Shown here piece by piece: positions 6,254-38,246 of a stretch of DNA of 40,986 nt. Position 1 is the first letter of the stretch. Each line of letters begins with the position of its first letter. This DNA is from an uncultured Desulfobacterium sp. (lineage in GTDB: Bacteria; Desulfobacterota; DSM-4660; Desulfatiglandales; Desulfatiglandaceae), in assembly GCA_900258555.1 (NCBI GenBank), contig LT984855.1:198043-239028 (forward strand). The letters run 5' to 3'. Under the pieces are notes generated by a model that was given only the letters and a program-made list of their open reading frames with translations, ran no database searches and was not told the DNA's origin. The translations under genes were made by a program, and so were the position numbers.

Positions 6254-8197
6254 TTAAGCCTTCACAGATTTCCCCTTGAAATAGGGATTCATGCTTGTCT
6301 TTCTTAACCCGCAACCGGAAACCCATAACCCGTCAGAATCCACCCTGTCCGCAAAAGTGATCGCGTCAACCGTAATACTAACCGCCCCCAGATCCTCTTC
6401 TACCTTCCCCTTGAGTATAAAGGGCCGGGCAGCGTTCAGCATGTGACAATATTGCTGATATACCCTGGGAAAGAATACTGCCTCATAAATGCCGGTTTGA
6501 TCCTCAAATGATATGAATTTCATGGCCTCGCCCTTCCTGGTGGTGACGGTCTTGCCTGTGACCAGCCAGCCGATGGTTTTGATAGTCTTTCCCACATAAA
6601 TGCCCATGTCTTTTGCCCGGATATAATCTACACCCCTCAGCTTGTTAAGGTAAAGATCCAAGGGATGGGCGGAGAGGTAAAAACCCAGCGTATCCATCTC
6701 ATATTTCAACACGAGAGATTTTGGGTATTGGCCCTGATAAGCCCCTCGGTTATCAGGCCGGATGGAATCAAGGGTCTTTTCAAAAAGCGTCGGCGTCCTT
6801 TTGTCTTCTTTTTGATGAAAAAATGCAACAGCCTGCCACATGAGCCCGGACCTGGCAGCGCCGCATGAGATGCTGTCAAGGCAACCCGCCTTAATGAGAA
6901 TCCTTGTATCCTCAAAACGCACATGCTGCCATGTCCTGACAAGAAAATCCTTCATGGAAACAAATGGTCCGTTTTTCTCGCGCTCATGAACGATGAACTC
7001 CTTTGCCTCTCTGGATATATCCTTTAGTTGCATAAGGCCTATGCGGATGGACCTGTCTTTCCCGGTGTATTTGATTTCGCTTAGGTTGACATCAGGAGGC
7101 AATACCTTTAGCCCCATGCGTTTTGCCTCCGACAGATACCCGAAGGTGGAATAATAGCCCCCGCCGTTTGAGATCACAGACGCCATGAACTCCGCCGGGT
7201 AATAGGCCTTAAGATATGCAGACTTATACGCGACCAGCGTATAGCTTGCAGAATGTGGTTTACAGAAGCTGTAGCCGTCAAAGCCCATCATCATTTGCCA
7301 TACCTTTTCTATTACCTTTTCGTCCACAGAGCGCTCCCTTGCACCCCGTACAAACATGGCATAAAAGTCCCGAAGCCTCTTTTCCCTGTGTTTCTTATTT
7401 ACCACCTTTCTGAGTGTCTCTGCATCAGCAGGCCCAAAGCCCGCCATGTGAATGGCCGCCTGGCTCAACTGCTCCTGAAAGACCATAACACCCAGGGTCT
7501 CTGCAAGCACCGGTCTTAAAAGCGGGTGGGGTGCATCCCACGGCCTTCCGTGGAGTCTTAATACCCATGTCCTGATGTCCTTGTTTGAGGCAGGCCTTAT
7601 GATGGAGGTGACAACCACATTAAGATGAAAGTGGTCCATTGCCTGATACCTTTCAAGATCAAGACCATGGCTTACCTTTTTCAGCACCTGCCTGGTGGCC
7701 GGGCTTTCGAAATAAAATACGCCGAATGTGTCGCCGTTATAGAAGATCTTTATTGTTTCAGGGTCATCAATCGGGTTTAAGTCCGCATAATCAATCCTGC
7801 GTCCATAGTTTTTCTCCACCAGATCCAGGGTATCCCGGATCACAGCAAGGGTGCGGTTTCCCAGGATATCTATCTTTACAAGGCCCCCTTCTTCCACAGA
7901 GTCCTTTTCCCACTGGAGGACCTGAAGGCCGCTTGCTGAGATCTCCACCGGACAATAGCGCCTTATCTCATCCGGTACCACCACCAGGCCCCCGCAGTGG
8001 GTGGATAGATGCCTAAAATGGTCCTCCAGCCTTGCCGCAGAGCTCAGGATCTCGTCCCAGGGCCTTTTAAATTCTATTCCCCTCATTTTGGGGTTTTTGG
8101 ACAACTCCTGCCATATATCCCTGAGACGCCAGCCATAACCTATCTTATCGGTCACGCGTCCTATTTCCCGGTCTGTAAGCCCGAATACCTTCGCCAC
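6254..8197 (-). CDS. dnaE2: Error-prone DNA polymerase DnaE2, C-terminal fragment
   Basis: C-terminal two thirds of a C-family polymerase: second half of the palm with the third catalytic Asp in VKIDILGN, fingers with VFQEQL and the GYSFCKPHSASY segment, helix-hairpin-helix region, and a C-terminal OB fold (about residues 535-620). Translation from GTG 8197 begins MAKVFGLTD, but reading upstream in this frame restores TFGARSAIREVAK, the expected continuation of the N-terminal fragment. A single missing base near 8229-8231 explains the break. AGGGAGG lies directly before the GTG with no spacer, so independent initiation is doubtful. Together the fragments total about 1035 residues, normal for DnaE2/ImuC. 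Confidence 0.85.
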   Translation of the reverse strand: MAKVFGLTDREIGRVTDKIGYGWRLRDIWQELSKNPKMRGIEFKRPWDEILSSAARLEDHFRHLSTHCGGLVVVPDEIRRYCPVEISASGLQVLQWEKDSVEEGGLVKIDILGNRTLAVIRDTLDLVEKNYGRRIDYADLNPIDDPETIKIFYNGDTFGVFYFESPATRQVLKKVSHGLDLERYQAMDHFHLNVVVTSIIRPASNKDIRTWVLRLHGRPWDAPHPLLRPVLAETLGVMVFQEQLSQAAIHMAGFGPADAETLRKVVNKKHREKRLRDFYAMFVRGARERSVDEKVIEKVWQMMMGFDGYSFCKPHSASYTLVAYKSAYLKAYYPAEFMASVISNGGGYYSTFGYLSEAKRMGLKVLPPDVNLSEIKYTGKDRSIRIGLMQLKDISREAKEFIVHEREKNGPFVSMKDFLVRTWQHVRFEDTRILIKAGCLDSISCGAARSGLMWQAVAFFHQKEDKRTPTLFEKTLDSIRPDNRGAYQGQYPKSLVLKYEMDTLGFYLSAHPLDLYLNKLRGVDYIRAKDMGIYVGKTIKTIGWLVTGKTVTTRKGEAMKFISFEDQTGIYEAVFFPRVYQQYCHMLNAARPFILKGKVEEDLGAVSITVDAITFADRVDSDGLWVSGCGLRKTSMNPYFKGKSVKA

Positions 8198-8202
8198 CTC
8201 CC

Positions 8203-9369
8203 TTATCGCAGACCTTGCCCCGAATGTGTTGTGGCCACCATGGCGGTCCTGCGGTTGCCGTATTTTGCGAATGCATAGTCAATGATCCTATCCCTTTCAT
8301 CCCATGCAAAGTCCACGTCAATATCCGGCGGATCCATGCGGCCAGGGTTTAAAAAACGCTCAAAGAAAAGCCTGTGCCTGATGGGGTCCACATGTGTGAT
8401 CCCCAGGGCATAGGAGACGATGGATGCAGCAGCGCTTCCTCTCCCGCATGAACGGCCGGCCCTCTTTGTGATATCAGCCACCACCAGGAAATAGTGGGCG
8501 AAATTCTTTTCACGGATAATCCTCATCTCATGATCCACCCTGTCCTTTACCTCTCTGGTGATCTTCCCGTAGCGTCTTTTACAGCCTTCAAGGGTCGCCC
8601 TGTATAACCGGTCAAATGCATCAGCGTTATCCATCCGCTCAAAACGGGGAAATATCAACCGGTCAAACTCCCAGTCCCTAAAACATGCATCTGCGATCCG
8701 CACTGTGTTTGATATTGCAATAGGCGCATGGGGGAACTGATCCTCCATCACATTTGCTGCATTAAGGAAATTGTGCTCACGGCAGCAATCCTCATCCGTA
8801 AGTCTGGAAAGCTTGCTGTTCATGGCCACGGCCCTCAATATCCTGTGGAGCTTAAACTGGTTTTTGGTGAGAAGATATACACGGTTTGTGGCGACAGGCG
8901 GAATGTCGCTCCTGCGGGAAAAGGCATAGCATTGGGACATCTGATAGCCAGGGGACATCTCCACAAACAGATCGCTGGTGCTGTCCTTTCTTAAGGCGGT
9001 AAGGAGACGAAAATCATCCGTCAGGATAATCAGCCCCTCGCGTCTTTGTCTGATGGCCCGGATCAGATCAAAGTCCTGATCACAGTGGCGATCAGAGATT
9101 ATCCTTGAGAGGTTTTCATAGCCGTACCGGTTTTTGACCAAAAGGACCGCACGGTTATTGCCTGACAAAAGCTCACTTCCCACAATGGGTTCAATGCCCA
9201 TCTCCCGGGCCGTCTGCACAAAAAAGACAATGCCGTAAAACCCGTTGGTGTCGGTAAGGGCCAGTTTCTTCATCCCCAGTTCCAGGGACTTCCGGCACAG
9301 ATCCTCAATGGAGCCTATGCCCCAGCCCTTGGAATAGTGGGAATGGACGTTTAGATGGATGAAACTCAT
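8203..9369 (-). CDS. dnaE2: Error-prone DNA polymerase DnaE2, N-terminal fragment
   Basis: N-terminal part of a C-family polymerase: PHP domain (HSHYSKGWG at about residues 9-17, then LALTDTNGFYG) and the first half of the palm with GRGSAAASIVSYALGI and the catalytic pair in PPDIDVDF. The frame then runs into MVATTHSGQGLR and a stop at 8203. An extra A in ACAAC would give MVATNTFGARSAIREV, the family consensus, in the frame of the downstream fragment. The ATG at 9369 overlaps the imuB stop as ATGA, so translation is coupled to imuB. Without the second fragment the polymerase lacks its third catalytic Asp. DnaE2/ImuC performs translesion synthesis with ImuB after SOS induction. Confidence 0.88.
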   Translation of the reverse strand: MSFIHLNVHSHYSKGWGIGSIEDLCRKSLELGMKKLALTDTNGFYGIVFFVQTAREMGIEPIVGSELLSGNNRAVLLVKNRYGYENLSRIISDRHCDQDFDLIRAIRQRREGLIILTDDFRLLTALRKDSTSDLFVEMSPGYQMSQCYAFSRRSDIPPVATNRVYLLTKNQFKLHRILRAVAMNSKLSRLTDEDCCREHNFLNAANVMEDQFPHAPIAISNTVRIADACFRDWEFDRLIFPRFERMDNADAFDRLYRATLEGCKRRYGKITREVKDRVDHEMRIIREKNFAHYFLVVADITKRAGRSCGRGSAAASIVSYALGITHVDPIRHRLFFERFLNPGRMDPPDIDVDFAWDERDRIIDYAFAKYGNRRTAMVATTHSGQGLR

Positions 9370-10529
9370 ATGGTTCTTCCACTCTTAATCGCCCCTTGTC
9401 CGTGCTTTTCCCTTATTCGATCAAGGGCCTTTATGACTGCGGAGTTCTTTTCTGAAAGGGGCGACGGCGTATGGAAGAGCGACAGTTGTTTGCTCGGATA
9501 AGTAAAATCAAGGAACCAGACACGGATAAATCGTACCTTCACCCTTCTGTCGCAGAGGTTTAAAAACAGTTGTTCCAACGGGCCATACAGGTCAAAATCA
9601 ATGGTGCTGAAATTAGTCAACCTTATCTGACGCTTTCTCTCCATGTGATCGGAATATCGCATGAAAAGGCCTGCCTTTCCGGGGACAAGGCCATTACCCC
9701 TCAATCTTTGAGAACACCTTTCAACCAGGCCGTAGATAACGCCCAGAAGTCTTTTATCATCGTTTTCATCCTCGGAAAGTGTTATTTCCTCAACCACCAT
9801 CGGCTGTTTTGTCCTGGGATAGACAGGTGTGGGGTCAATCCCCATGGCCCTTTGATGGATGACAGGGGCATGGCTCCCGAAGATAAGTCTGAGCCTGCCC
9901 ACATCCAGACGGGCCAGGTCCCTGACCCTTATGATGTTAAGCTCTTCCAACAGGGCCTTCTGCCTAAGACCTCCTATGCCAGGCACCACACCCACCTTAA
10001 GGGGGGCTATAAATGAATACTCCCTGCCGTGGTCAACATCCAGCACATCCAGCCAGGGTGTTATGCGGGAGGCAATGCTTGAGACCATCTTGTTGATTGC
10101 CACACCTGCTGTCCCGGCAAGACAAAGCCTTGACTTGATCTCCCTGCCGAGACGCCGGCCGGTATCCCTGGGCCTACCCCACAGCCGTTCCGTACCGGTG
10201 ATGTCAATGTATATGTGCCCTGGTCCGGCTGGTTCAAATAGCGGGCTATACCTCCGAACCACATCCTCTATGGCCCTGGAGGCCCTTTTCGTGAGCGCCG
10301 GATCAGGCGCAAGCACAGCCATCCCCGGGCAGAGCTTCATAGCCGTTGAAAGGGCCATGCCCTTAAAAACTCCTTCCTTTTTGGCCTCTCCGGACACGGA
10401 AATCACAAGGCCGCGTTCCGAATGGGCCTGGGCCACAACCACAGGACGGCCCCTGAGCCTCGGAGAACAGACCCGGGCCACGGCAATGGGAAAAGACGGG
10501 ATATGAAAATGGATGATGTGGCGGTTCAC
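9366..10529 (-). CDS. imuB: ImuB, catalytically inactive Y-family polymerase homologue
   Basis: Y-family (DinB-like) fold acting as a scaffold rather than a polymerase. The usual first metal-binding Asp is absent: HIIHFHIPSF stands where DinB has a D-x-D. The SIDE palm motif is replaced by YIDITGTERLWG, as in ImuB proteins. Helix-hairpin-helix features (VPGIGGLRQKALLEEL) and a little-finger domain follow. Near the C-terminus QLSLF matches the beta-clamp binding motif QLxLF, the property by which ImuB brings DnaE2 to the clamp. I place the start at GTG 10529, just before the conserved NRHIIHFH; GTG 10550 or TTG 10592 (the latter overlapping lexA) are alternatives, and the extra residues they add come from a repeated-word tract. 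It ends in an ATGA overlap with dnaE2. Confidence 0.88.
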   Translation of the reverse strand: MNRHIIHFHIPSFPIAVARVCSPRLRGRPVVVAQAHSERGLVISVSGEAKKEGVFKGMALSTAMKLCPGMAVLAPDPALTKRASRAIEDVVRRYSPLFEPAGPGHIYIDITGTERLWGRPRDTGRRLGREIKSRLCLAGTAGVAINKMVSSIASRITPWLDVLDVDHGREYSFIAPLKVGVVPGIGGLRQKALLEELNIIRVRDLARLDVGRLRLIFGSHAPVIHQRAMGIDPTPVYPRTKQPMVVEEITLSEDENDDKRLLGVIYGLVERCSQRLRGNGLVPGKAGLFMRYSDHMERKRQIRLTNFSTIDFDLYGPLEQLFLNLCDRRVKVRFIRVWFLDFTYPSKQLSLFHTPSPLSEKNSAVIKALDRIREKHGQGAIKSGRTI

Positions 10530-10569
10530 GGTACAAGGGACACGGGACACGGTGAACCGTGCACCGTCC

Positions 10570-11172
10570 TCACAAGTACCTGATAACACCAACCACCCTC
10601 CCCTCGATCCGGATGTCCCCCTTTTTGACCTTGATGGGCTCCATGCCCGAGTGTGCCGGGTGCAGTTCTATACGGCCCTTCTTTTTATAGTACTTTTTTA
10701 CGGTCGCCTCGTTTTCTATAAGTGCCACGACGGTCTGACCGTTTTCAGCGTCAGGCTGTTTTTTGACCACCACAAAATCGCCGTCCATTATGCCGTCTTC
10801 CTGCATGGAATTCCCTTTTACCCTGAGGACGAAATGGTCGCCGCCGGCCGCCATAGAAGGGGGGACCTCTATGGCGCTTATATCCTCCACCGCCTCAATG
10901 GGTCTTCCGGCCGCCACCATCCCCAACAAAGGGATCTCAAAGCGTTTTGTCTCCACAGGACTGATCACCTCTATGGCCCGTTTGAGGTTCTTTTCTTTCG
11001 GCAGGCGTATATAGCCCTTTCTCTCAAGGACCTTGAGGTAGGTGGTGACCGTGTTATAGGATTTGAAGCCGAACTCGGAGCAGATCTCGTCAAAGCTCGG
11101 CGACATCTCCCACATCTCGATGTATCGGGAGATAAAGCCTAAGACAGCCTTTTGCCTGTCTGTCAGTTTCAT
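10570..11172 (-). CDS. lexA: SOS repressor LexA
   Basis: Represses SOS genes and cleaves itself when stimulated by RecA filaments. Numbered from ATG 11172: the winged-helix domain is residues 1-65; the cleavage site is Ala88-Gly89 in VAAGRP; the catalytic Ser122 is in KGNSMQEDGI and Lys159 in EATVKKYY. All are at the spacing known from E. coli LexA (84/85, 119, 156). TTG 11178 is also in frame, but AAGGAG at the correct distance points to ATG 11172. It is the first gene of lexA-imuB-dnaE2. A near-consensus promoter overlapped by a perfect inverted repeat lies just upstream, so autoregulation is likely. Confidence 0.95.
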   Translation of the reverse strand: MKLTDRQKAVLGFISRYIEMWEMSPSFDEICSEFGFKSYNTVTTYLKVLERKGYIRLPKEKNLKRAIEVISPVETKRFEIPLLGMVAAGRPIEAVEDISAIEVPPSMAAGGDHFVLRVKGNSMQEDGIMDGDFVVVKKQPDAENGQTVVALIENEATVKKYYKKKGRIELHPAHSGMEPIKVKKGDIRIEGRVVGVIRYL

Positions 11173-31439: not shown

Positions 31440-31931
31440 ATGTTCAGTGAGGAGTGCGTGCTAATCATCACGGGCCCGGCACAAATGCATATTGAAGACA
31501 CTCGGGATGTGGTCCTTATTTCAACATCACTTGGCGCTGGAATCGGGCTTGCCGCGTACGACTCAGAGACTAACATCGGGGGAATCCTGCATTTTTTGCT
31601 CCCATCTTCGGCCAACAATAAATTAAGGGCAAAACAAAACCCCCTCCTGTTTGCAGACTCAGGCATTCAAACCTTTTTAGAACAGTTGGAGCAACATGGT
31701 GTCAAGACCCACAGCCTAAAGCTTGTTGCCGCAGGCGCCAGTCATAATATAAACCAGGAAACCCCTTACGATATTGCCCATAGAAATTGCCTGGCGGTAA
31801 AAGCAATACTGGCGGGTTATAGATTGACACCCACACATGAAGATTTCGGAGGGAGTTTTTATCGCGTGCTGAGGATACAGGACAGCCACATCTACGTGGA
31901 AATACCCGGACATGGAGAGAAAAGGATATGA
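31440..31931 (+). CDS. CheD-like protein lacking the catalytic cysteine
   Basis: CheD deamidates glutamines of chemoreceptors and binds CheC. The fold signature is present: a strand, LGxxxGLAAYD, IGGILHFLLPS, then the LVAAGASHNI region matching the family's K-x-x-GGA segment. Where active CheD has LGSC with the nucleophile Cys, this protein has LGAG (Gly34). His51 lies 17 residues later, the same spacing as Cys27-His44 in Thermotoga CheD, so the missing Cys is a real substitution. It is probably a non-catalytic binder. It overlaps the next gene, an HDOD protein, by 4 bases (ATGA), so the two are coupled. Start 31440 has no good ribosome site; GTG 31458 is an alternative. Confidence 0.8.
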   Translation: MFSEECVLIITGPAQMHIEDTRDVVLISTSLGAGIGLAAYDSETNIGGILHFLLPSSANNKLRAKQNPLLFADSGIQTFLEQLEQHGVKTHSLKLVAAGASHNINQETPYDIAHRNCLAVKAILAGYRLTPTHEDFGGSFYRVLRIQDSHIYVEIPGHGEKRI

Positions 31932-32776
31932 AGTCTATCCATGAAATAATAATCGAGGTTGACAGACTGGCTCCTATGCCTCAGGTAATGAATCAGATTA
32001 TGGCCATTGCTGAAGACCCTAACAGCACCATGACGGATATTGCTGAGGTAATTATTTATGATCCTGTTATTACCGGCAGTCTTATAAAGGCATGCAACTC
32101 TGCCTATTATGCCCTGCCAAGAAAGGTAAATTCGGTAAAAGAGGCCATAATGCTCCTGGGATTGGATCAGGTTATTGAATTTGTGCTGATCAAGACCATC
32201 AGTGCATATCTGAAAAAGGGAACTCTCGGCTATGGCCTTAACGAAGGCGAACTATGGCGTTATTCTGTTTCAACCGCCTTGATGGCCAGAGATCTGGCTG
32301 CGCGAAAAGACGCCTCAAACAAACAGTTTATCTTCACTGCCTCACTTCTCAAAGACATTGGAAAAATCGTCCTGGACAGATTTGTCTCAGGGGCGATTGA
32401 AGAAATAGAAGAGCTTGTCTTGAGCAATAGTTACAGCTTCAAGGAAGCGGAGGAAGAGGTTATAGGCCTTGATCACGCAGAACTTGGGGGAATAATCGCT
32501 GAAAAATGGGACTTCAGTCCGGAGCTGACTTACGTGATAAGAAATCATCATATGACTGATCTTTCGGCCATGGAAGACTACGCCACATCCGTTGTATATC
32601 TGGCGGAAATAGTCGCCATGATGACAGGGATTGGCAGCGGAATCGACGGGCTTGCCTATAGATTTTATGAAAATGTCCTTGAAGGGTTGAAGATCACGGA
32701 GGATGATCTTCAGGAAACCATATCCCTGGCTTCGGAACACTATTATAATGTTCTTGATTTGCTCTCCATAACCTGA
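31928..32776 (+). CDS. HDOD-domain protein
   Basis: 282 residues, almost entirely one HDOD domain: LAPMPQVMNQIMAIAEDPNS, then VIIYDPVITGSLIKACNSAYY and VKEAIMLLGLDQVIEFVLI. HDOD proteins are HD-related but usually lack the full metal site, and act as signalling adaptors in motility, biofilm and stress control. Translation is coupled to the CheD-like pseudoenzyme upstream, suggesting that the two proteins act together. A repeated-word tract follows the stop codon. Confidence 0.88.
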   Translation: MKSIHEIIIEVDRLAPMPQVMNQIMAIAEDPNSTMTDIAEVIIYDPVITGSLIKACNSAYYALPRKVNSVKEAIMLLGLDQVIEFVLIKTISAYLKKGTLGYGLNEGELWRYSVSTALMARDLAARKDASNKQFIFTASLLKDIGKIVLDRFVSGAIEEIEELVLSNSYSFKEAEEEVIGLDHAELGGIIAEKWDFSPELTYVIRNHHMTDLSAMEDYATSVVYLAEIVAMMTGIGSGIDGLAYRFYENVLEGLKITEDDLQETISLASEHYYNVLDLLSIT

Positions 32777-32847: not shown

Positions 32848-33060
32848 ATGCACATTACACATCTTGATCAGCGCTTCGGCAGCATTGCAGTTAGAAAGGG
32901 ATATATTACCGCTGAGCAACTTGTTGAGGCAATTACGCTTCAGGTAAAAGAAAACGTGGAAGGCAATAAACACAGGCTTATCGGTGCAATTCTCCATGAA
33001 AAGGGATTCATGACAGCAGATCAGATAAATGATGTATTAAAAACCATAATAGAAATGTAA
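32848..33060 (+). CDS. Stand-alone MshEN-like small domain
   Basis: 70 residues. The pattern RFGSIAVRKGYITAEQLVEA and then RLIGAILHEKGFMTADQI matches the repeat found in the N-terminal domain of type II/IV secretion ATPases (MshEN, GspE_N), which binds c-di-GMP in some members. Here it is a free-standing protein without an ATPase. It lies between an HDOD gene and other signalling genes, so a c-di-GMP adaptor role is possible but unproven. A short CAAGGAT precedes the ATG. Confidence 0.65.
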   Translation: MHITHLDQRFGSIAVRKGYITAEQLVEAITLQVKENVEGNKHRLIGAILHEKGFMTADQINDVLKTIIEM

Positions 33061-36318: not shown

Positions 36319-36699
36319 ATGCATCAATATCTGCACATGAAAATTAATGAACAAAGACAATTTGCACGATTAAAAACCGTCAATTTAATATCGTATATAT
36401 GTATAGATGGAAATTCCAATCCGCTGTATCAGGGAATGGGAAAGACCCTGGACATCAGTAAAGGCGGGCTTCTTATGGAAACAGGCGGCCCTGTCAACTC
36501 GAAATTCATTATTATTACATCTACGAACACAAAAGAAGAATTGATCCAGATCAAAGGTGCGGTTGCTTATTGCAGGCAAAAGGGACCAGGGGTATTTCAT
36601 ACCGGCATCCATTTCATTGAGACAACCGAGAAGATAAATGAGGTTGTTCAGGAGATGATAAGGGTATTCGTCAACACCAAAAAAGTTGATGTCGAATAA
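36319..36699 (+). CDS. PilZ-domain protein
   Basis: 126 residues, essentially one PilZ domain, a c-di-GMP receptor. The N-terminal RQFARLKT corresponds to the RxxxR arginine motif, and LDISKGGLL is the D-x-S-x-G-G motif; both are needed for c-di-GMP binding. Beta strands such as VAYCRQKGPGVFHTGIHFI complete the barrel. ATG 36319 or the in-frame ATG 36337 (MKINEQRQF) could be the start. The next gene downstream makes c-di-GMP, so the two may work in one circuit. Confidence 0.88.
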   Translation: MHQYLHMKINEQRQFARLKTVNLISYICIDGNSNPLYQGMGKTLDISKGGLLMETGGPVNSKFIIITSTNTKEELIQIKGAVAYCRQKGPGVFHTGIHFIETTEKINEVVQEMIRVFVNTKKVDVE

Positions 36700-36737
36700 A
36701 AACCTTAAAATGTCCCTGAATATTTATCCGAAACGAC

Positions 36738-38246
36738 ATGAGTGCATTAAGCAAGCTATTAAATAAAGACATAAAAGTACCATCTCCGCCAAGTATCGCC
36801 ATGAATCTGCTGAAGGCGGTTAAAAATGACGCTTCCACCTACAAAGAGATTGCCGGGATTATATCATCCGATCCTGCCCTGACTGCAAAGACACTGAAAA
36901 TAGCCAATTCGCCTTTTTACGGCCTGTCAAGAAAGATCGACAGTATTGAAAGGGCCATCTCAGTTTTAGGCGTTACCGCATTAAAAAATATCGCCCTTTC
37001 CTTTACCATTTCCCAGGGTTTTAGCGGTAGGAGTTCCGCCCGATTTGACTTTAATTATTTCTGGAAGCGAGCGATTACAGCGGCAATCGGCGCAGAACTC
37101 ACAGCAGCTATGATCGGCAAGAGGAGTGACGACACCTTCGTTACAGGCCTTCTTCAGGATATCGGCATCCTGATCCTATACTATTGTCTGGCGCATGAGT
37201 ATGCCGCTGTGATTGCAGAGAAAAAAACCACGGGACTCCCTATCTCACAATTAGAAAAGGAGATGTTTGGCTTTGACCATCAGGAACTTGGCTCGGAAAT
37301 CCTGAAGGAATGGGGGTTACCGGAAACAATCTCCATCCCGATATATTATCATCACCATGAAAAGAATATACCCGAGCAGTGGGAGAGTCAGTCCCAGGTT
37401 CTCTTTTTATCAAACAAGATCTCATCCCTCTACCATGGCGCTTATTCTTCAAAAAACATTCGAACCATAAGACCCATTCTCCAGACCAGGTACGGGGTTT
37501 CACAAGAGGATTGCGACAACCTGATAGATGCGGTCGCCAATAAGGCAGCAGGAGTGATATCCCTGTTTGAGGTTGAGGCAGGGGAATTGAAACCCTTCTC
37601 AGAGATTCTACAGGAAGCCAATGAAGAGCTTGGAAAACTTAATCTGTCTTATGAACAACTGCTTATCGAGTATAAGGAGGCTAAGCAGAGGGCGGAGCAT
37701 CTGGCAAATGACTTAAAAGAGGCCAACGACAAACTGAGAGAGCTGTCAATAAAAGATGGCCTTACAGGGCTTTATAACCATCGCCATTTTCAGGACCTTT
37801 TCGACACGGAACTGCACCGGTCCAAAAGGTACAAGACACCACTGACATTGATGATGATTGACCTGGACCATTTTAAGGGCATAAATGATGCCTTCGGCCA
37901 TCCTGTAGGCGATAAGGTATTGCAAAGTATTGCAAAGGAGATGATGGAATGCGTTAGGGCTACCGATATTGTCGCCCGGTACGGGGGTGAGGAGTTTGCT
38001 ATTATAATGCCCGGAACAGGCTCCAAGAACGCCGCAATCACAGGGGAACGGCTAAGAAAAGCCATTGAGAAAATGGAAATAGCGGCCGGTGGTTTGATAA
38101 TAAAGACAACGGTAAGCATTGGGGTGGCCACTTATACGCCGGAAGAAAAAGAATGCGTGAAATCCCTGATACTTAATGCAGCGGATAAGGCACTATACAG
38201 CTCCAAGAAAGCGGGAAGGAATAAATTGAGCATAGCAAGCATATAG
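36738..38246 (+). CDS. HDOD-GGDEF diguanylate cyclase
   Basis: 502 residues. The N-terminal HDOD domain (about 10-215: KVPSPPSIAMNLLKAVKNDA, then IAGIISSDPALTAKTLKIANS) is followed by a coiled coil (about 285-340) and a GGDEF domain starting at SIKDGLTGLYNHRHFQ. The active site is RYGGEEF, and RATD five residues upstream is the RxxD product-inhibition site. It should therefore make c-di-GMP with feedback control. No membrane segment is seen, so it is cytoplasmic. It lies 38 bases after the PilZ gene on the same strand. Confidence 0.94.
   Translation: MSALSKLLNKDIKVPSPPSIAMNLLKAVKNDASTYKEIAGIISSDPALTAKTLKIANSPFYGLSRKIDSIERAISVLGVTALKNIALSFTISQGFSGRSSARFDFNYFWKRAITAAIGAELTAAMIGKRSDDTFVTGLLQDIGILILYYCLAHEYAAVIAEKKTTGLPISQLEKEMFGFDHQELGSEILKEWGLPETISIPIYYHHHEKNIPEQWESQSQVLFLSNKISSLYHGAYSSKNIRTIRPILQTRYGVSQEDCDNLIDAVANKAAGVISLFEVEAGELKPFSEILQEANEELGKLNLSYEQLLIEYKEAKQRAEHLANDLKEANDKLRELSIKDGLTGLYNHRHFQDLFDTELHRSKRYKTPLTLMMIDLDHFKGINDAFGHPVGDKVLQSIAKEMMECVRATDIVARYGGEEFAIIMPGTGSKNAAITGERLRKAIEKMEIAAGGLIIKTTVSIGVATYTPEEKECVKSLILNAADKALYSSKKAGRNKLSIASI

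Follow-up and report, generated by a model that had tools for sequence, protein, structure and literature searches.

CheD (PF03975), known from T. maritima (structure 2F9Z) and B. subtilis, is a glutamine deamidase of chemotaxis receptors, and the catalytic triad of the T. maritima protein consists of Cys27/His44/Thr21 (PMC7022378). In the CheC–CheD pair of both bacteria, CheD is bound by a non-receptor partner, and in B. subtilis what it binds counts for more than what it deamidates (PMC3513319), a separation of binding from catalysis for which the evidence consulted comes from B. subtilis mutants (PMC3513319). The group alpha che clusters of Geobacter include an HD-domain protein (PMC2577667), and HDOD has been termed a domain of unknown function (PMC11004494). 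Proteins with this domain are widespread and influence motility, and their partners are poorly known.

Here we describe, within a 40,986-nucleotide stretch of an uncultured Desulfobacterium sp. genome (the window), a cheD-like gene that lacks the nucleophile Cys and overlaps an HDOD gene. Its product shares with the CheD deamidases the family, the fold, the spacing of the catalytic His and a hydroxyl residue at the Thr position, but it carries Gly in place of Cys, and the gene adjoins one for HDOD rather than those for receptors, CheA or CheC. The pair is orthologous to that of the CheA-CheD-HDOD-CheY-CheX-CheB operons of the Desulfobacterales type, with the same order and the same ATGA overlap, whereas in those operons Thr/Cys/His is kept and the pair lies among che genes. 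Compared with CheC–CheD, the partner gene encodes HDOD rather than CheC, which went undetected in the genome and is rare across the order, and binding between the two proteins is something that we infer. The Geobacter clusters likewise combine an HD-superfamily protein with che genes in former delta-proteobacteria, but, in a comparison made by description only, their protein is called an HD domain, is not tied to CheD and comes with no reported catalytic loss. CheD and HDOD proteins are already known kinds, as are the HD-domain proteins of che clusters in delta-proteobacteria; the conserved CheD–HDOD module and the link between its orphaning and active-site loss appear to be new, and a literature search with most subscription papers outside its scope found no paper naming CheD and HDOD together.

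The CheD-like gene and its HDOD neighbour

The CheD-family reading frame occupies 31440-31931 on the plus strand, giving 163 aa if the ATG at 31440 is used, and matches PF03975 with an E-value of 3e-15 (56.7 bits, with the cut-off at 25). The real start is likely the GTG at 31458, because the ATG at 31440 is missing from the other member of the genus (G001), and a TGAGG motif and the GTG are conserved in both; the gene would then span 31458..31931 (+) and encode 157 aa. From this GTG, Gly34 and His51 of the 163-aa numbering, which we keep below, become Gly28 and His45.

The LGSC nucleophile motif of CheD reads LGAG in the window protein. Alignments place Gly34 (GGA, 31539..31541, +) where other CheDs have the catalytic Cys and identify His51 (CAT, 31590..31592, +) as the retained catalytic His, 17 residues downstream, which is the spacing of Cys27/His44 in the alignment to 2F9Z_C; both the replacement and the exact spacing had been proposed in the first-pass annotation and are borne out. 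Relatives linked to che genes have Thr as the third member of the triad, and the window protein has Ser28 (TCA, 31521..31523, +) at this position. NTAN1 uses Ser at this position (PMC7022378), and Ser28 by itself therefore need not kill CheD activity. An AlphaFold2 model built from a 33-sequence alignment (pLDDT 88, pTM 0.85) has the CheD / CNF1-YfiH-like fold and matches 2F9Z_C (VIA Z 20.9, rmsd 2.0 Å, 153 residues), with NTAN1 next (Z 12). The CheD fold is thus predicted to be kept and the nucleophile gone, and because of this loss the protein should be unable to deamidate glutamines by the known mechanism.

The HDOD gene (31928..32776, +) encodes a 282-aa protein with a strong match to PF08668 (E 1.5e-51, 175 bits, with the cut-off at 22.9) and is, by Pfam and the HDOD tree, the standing partner of this CheD clade. 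At the metal site, Lys142-Asp143 replaces the His-Asp doublet of catalytic HD phosphohydrolases, and most HDODs of the che operons described below have the same replacement. Stop and start codons of the two genes overlap in ATGA (31928..31931, +), as had been seen at first pass, and this junction is the same in 66 of 77 distinct CheD–HDOD pairs. Downstream lies a 70-aa reading frame (32848..33060, +), possibly co-transcribed, with weak similarity to DUF4388 and strong conservation beside the pair in both genus members (82% identity in G001, dN/dS 0.07); it belongs to a small multi-copy family with paralogues elsewhere (28 of 61 related genomes) and is no component of the che operons. A second HDOD signalling locus, comprising a PilZ gene and then an HDOD-GGDEF protein (36319-38246, +), is found about 4 kb from the pair.

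A Pfam scan found no chemotaxis genes among the window proteins that it covered, as the first-pass annotation had stated, and none in the 18-kb locus either; to this must be added that contig C3 of the genome (G000) encodes CheA, CheW, CheB, CheR and two MCPs but not CheD, and that the genome encodes flagellins. The window CheD is the single CheD of this genome. The suggestion of a CheC-like partner fared less well: CheC is unlikely to be the partner, because a Pfam profile search of the genome gave no match to PF04509 and the family is scarce across the order, where 14 of 85 genomes gave a match, mostly a weak one.

CheD–HDOD pairs in che operons of Desulfobacterota

Our homologue search, which covered 61 related genomes, returned one close relative of the window CheD (G001, 75–76% identity) and then a continuum at about 25–36%. 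Most of the top-ranked loci have an HDOD gene immediately 3' of cheD, and Pfam annotation of larger regions gave CheA-CheD-HDOD-CheY-CheX-CheB as the usual order, together with PilZ, CheR or CheZ; in some genomes this che operon adjoins flagellin and FlgK genes. The order is repeated in most of 80 further loci, many of them titled Desulfobacterales, Desulfobacteraceae, Syntrophobacteraceae, Desulfarculales or Deltaproteobacteria, and the CheD–HDOD adjacency spans the family, the order and these loci. The Syntrophobacteraceae and Desulfarculales loci are without HDOD and have CheD followed by CheY. Across the sampled loci, 74 distinct Cys-bearing CheDs have HDOD directly downstream; given this number and the recurrence of the ATGA junction, the pairing exceeds chance.

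In the CheD tree, the window protein falls inside the HDOD-partnered clade (SH-aLRT 95–96), apart from other CheD paralogues, on a very long branch of 2.53 changes per site. This position, the che-operon setting of the relatives and the common junction indicate that the pairing is ancestral and chemotactic rather than new, with a dead CheD freshly joined to HDOD signalling. The window pair has the features of the CheD–HDOD module, though it is not embedded among CheA, CheY, CheX or CheB.

The same che operons hold a second CheD clade, without an HDOD neighbour, in which Gly or Ala replaces Cys in 7 of 14 proteins and several are without the His. The Cys-less members are L119:545-1060 (-), L141:551-1060 (-), L140:7346-7852, L121:9438-9953, L051:14340-14849, L133:8335-8853 and L122:7341-7853, and Cys-less CheD paralogues within che operons look recurrent. 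Membership of the window CheD in this clade was ruled out by the CheD tree. There are also single-chain CheD–HDOD fusions of about 450 aa (L041:13480-14838 (-), L038:9778-11109 (-) and L031:1432-2808), which form a separate clade, keep Cys and His and have Ala aligned at the Thr position.

Active-site loss and the loss of che genes

Alignment did not show the loss of Cys to be common among HDOD-adjacent CheDs, a possibility raised at first pass: Gly at this position is confined to the window, G001 and a third genome, G018, and the other 74 distinct proteins keep Cys. Close homologues that combine Cys with an HDOD neighbour had been named as evidence against a reused fold; those that do so are distant (about 25–36% identity), and the sole close homologue (76%) shares the loss. 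Widespread loss was rejected after DNA-pattern scans, which detected the non-Cys form in 3 of the 85 genomes of the order, the Cys form in 20 of these 85, and the non-Cys form in 2 of the 395 genomes of the phylum, all by a strict pattern that CheDs of the HALGSCLGL type escape; a single-sequence search of genome contigs gave no match.

The state of the triad goes with che linkage. Thr/Cys/His is intact in all 70 distinct HDOD-adjacent CheDs that have a che gene in the locus, and the triad is altered in four of the five pairs that have none (Fisher p 4e-6, with relatedness of genomes ignored). The altered triads read Ser/Gly/His in the window and in G001, Ala/Gly/Tyr in G018 and Ala/Cys/His in G026; the fifth che-unlinked pair, L071, has an intact triad and lies 1.25 kb from a contig end. 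Among well-flanked loci without che genes, therefore, the triad is damaged in four of four and the pair is retained in all. The four damaged orphan pairs probably represent three events, and the loss of catalysis appears to follow the loss of che genes.

Loss of che genes between shared flanks is seen in G018 only, among the orphan loci. Its locus has flanks in common with the intact operon of G019, namely a response-regulator/HD protein, PilZ, an NAD-synthase-like gene and a CheD–HDOD fusion; from between them CheA, CheY, CheX and CheB are gone, and the CheD–HDOD pair and the fusion remain. In addition to the dead CheD, this genome encodes a second, more distant one on a different contig, and both G018 and the window genome still encode chemosensory systems elsewhere. 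In G026, where the pair is present, no CheW-domain protein was matched in the 93% complete assembly.

The two trees differ on whether Cys was lost once or twice. The CheD tree joins G018 with the window protein (SH-aLRT 89), with long branches meeting there; the HDOD tree groups G018 with G005 and G026 and sets the window pair apart from them (93 and 93). We rejected a single loss common to both lineages on the strength of the HDOD tree and the long branches behind the CheD join; two independent losses, one in this genus and one in G018, are more likely than one, though not proven.

Possible roles of the orphan pair

Comparison of the window genome with G001 by the Nei–Gojobori method, which makes the values rough, gave a dN/dS of about 0.17 for CheD (dS 0.83), 0.08 for HDOD and 0.06–0.22 for flanking genes, showing that the window CheD has remained under purifying selection since it lost Cys. 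HDOD retains nearly all conserved columns, and of the CheD columns that relatives conserve at over 90%, about half are lost, including the Thr and Cys of the triad. This pattern is unlike that of a pseudogene and fits a protein that was freed from catalysis and is still needed; the long CheD branch fits weakened constraint as well. We also considered HDOD as a substrate of deamidation, with Glu replacing Gln where CheD is dead, and rejected it, since no convincing Q-to-E column was found (the sole candidate, position 72, is already mixed Q/D/E).

The reading that we favor, with a probability of roughly 60%, is that the window pair is a che-operon relict kept as a deamidase-independent module, in which CheD, itself non-catalytic, would bind or regulate HDOD. 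A binding role is the best reading because a CheD fold without its nucleophile is coupled to HDOD and under purifying selection. In che operons, the pair would connect the adaptation of receptors with HDOD signalling, and HDOD would stand approximately where CheC stands in B. subtilis. The surrounding che genes would then have been lost or left behind and the pair retained, leaving only the HDOD-binding half of the work of CheD, which most likely persists as a stoichiometric partner or regulator made in step with HDOD through translational coupling at the ATGA. The operon neighbourhood and the natural fusions point to direct binding only indirectly, and, by analogy, the precedence of binding over deamidation in B. 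subtilis would fit such a role. Of the original idea that a CheD fold was reused as a binder in HDOD signalling, the non-catalytic role stands on fold, coupling and selection, and a setting foreign to chemotaxis does not stand, as the pair normally sits in a che operon.

Three other explanations rank lower. The best of them, which we consider unlikely, is that CheD acts as a non-catalytic receptor- or CheA-binding regulator for the chemosensory system on contig C3 and that the HDOD neighbour is an inherited layout. That genome does have CheA, CheW, CheB, CheR and two MCPs with no other CheD to serve them, and binding is the main role of CheD in B. subtilis (PMC3513319); however, G026 has kept its pair without a detected CheW-domain protein, G018 has another CheD besides its dead one, and HDOD is more conserved than CheD, with the coupling retained. 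Against the favored reading, orphaning events are few (about three), and CheD could act on chemosensory systems elsewhere in G018 and G000. Less probable again is a decaying CheD frame retained mainly since HDOD translation is coupled to it through the ATGA: the long branch, the loss of about half of the conserved residues and the conserved junction are what such decay would leave, but coupling alone would leave the protein sequence unconserved, and the predicted fold is intact (pLDDT 88) and selection after Cys loss (dN/dS 0.17, dS 0.83) resembles that on the neighbours. An altered enzymatic activity with another nucleophile, such as Cys117 of the RNC motif common to the window CheD and G001, is very improbable despite the retained His and the Ser at the Thr position, as Cys117 lies away from the nucleophile position and G018 has Leu at the residue 117 position and has also lost the His.

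Beyond the favored reading of the window pair as a retained HDOD-binding module, we offer, at slightly less than even odds, the broader proposal that CheD and HDOD form a conserved signalling complex whose function depends on neither chemotaxis nor deamidation, so that upon che loss catalysis decays and the complex continues to be selected. If true, CheD would have served ancestrally in these bacteria mainly to control an HDOD protein. A conserved and translationally coupled CheD, found inside and outside che operons, is a concrete candidate partner for this poorly understood output domain, and recurrent decay of the CheD active site upon che loss is a natural experiment that separates binding from catalysis.

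Elsewhere in the window, a DnaE-type DNA polymerase III alpha gene (6254-9369, -) is split into two abutting frames that jointly cover the polymerase domains and adjoins an ImuB/DinB-like gene (9366-10592); the cause may be a frameshift or an assembly error, or the gene may be genuinely divided.
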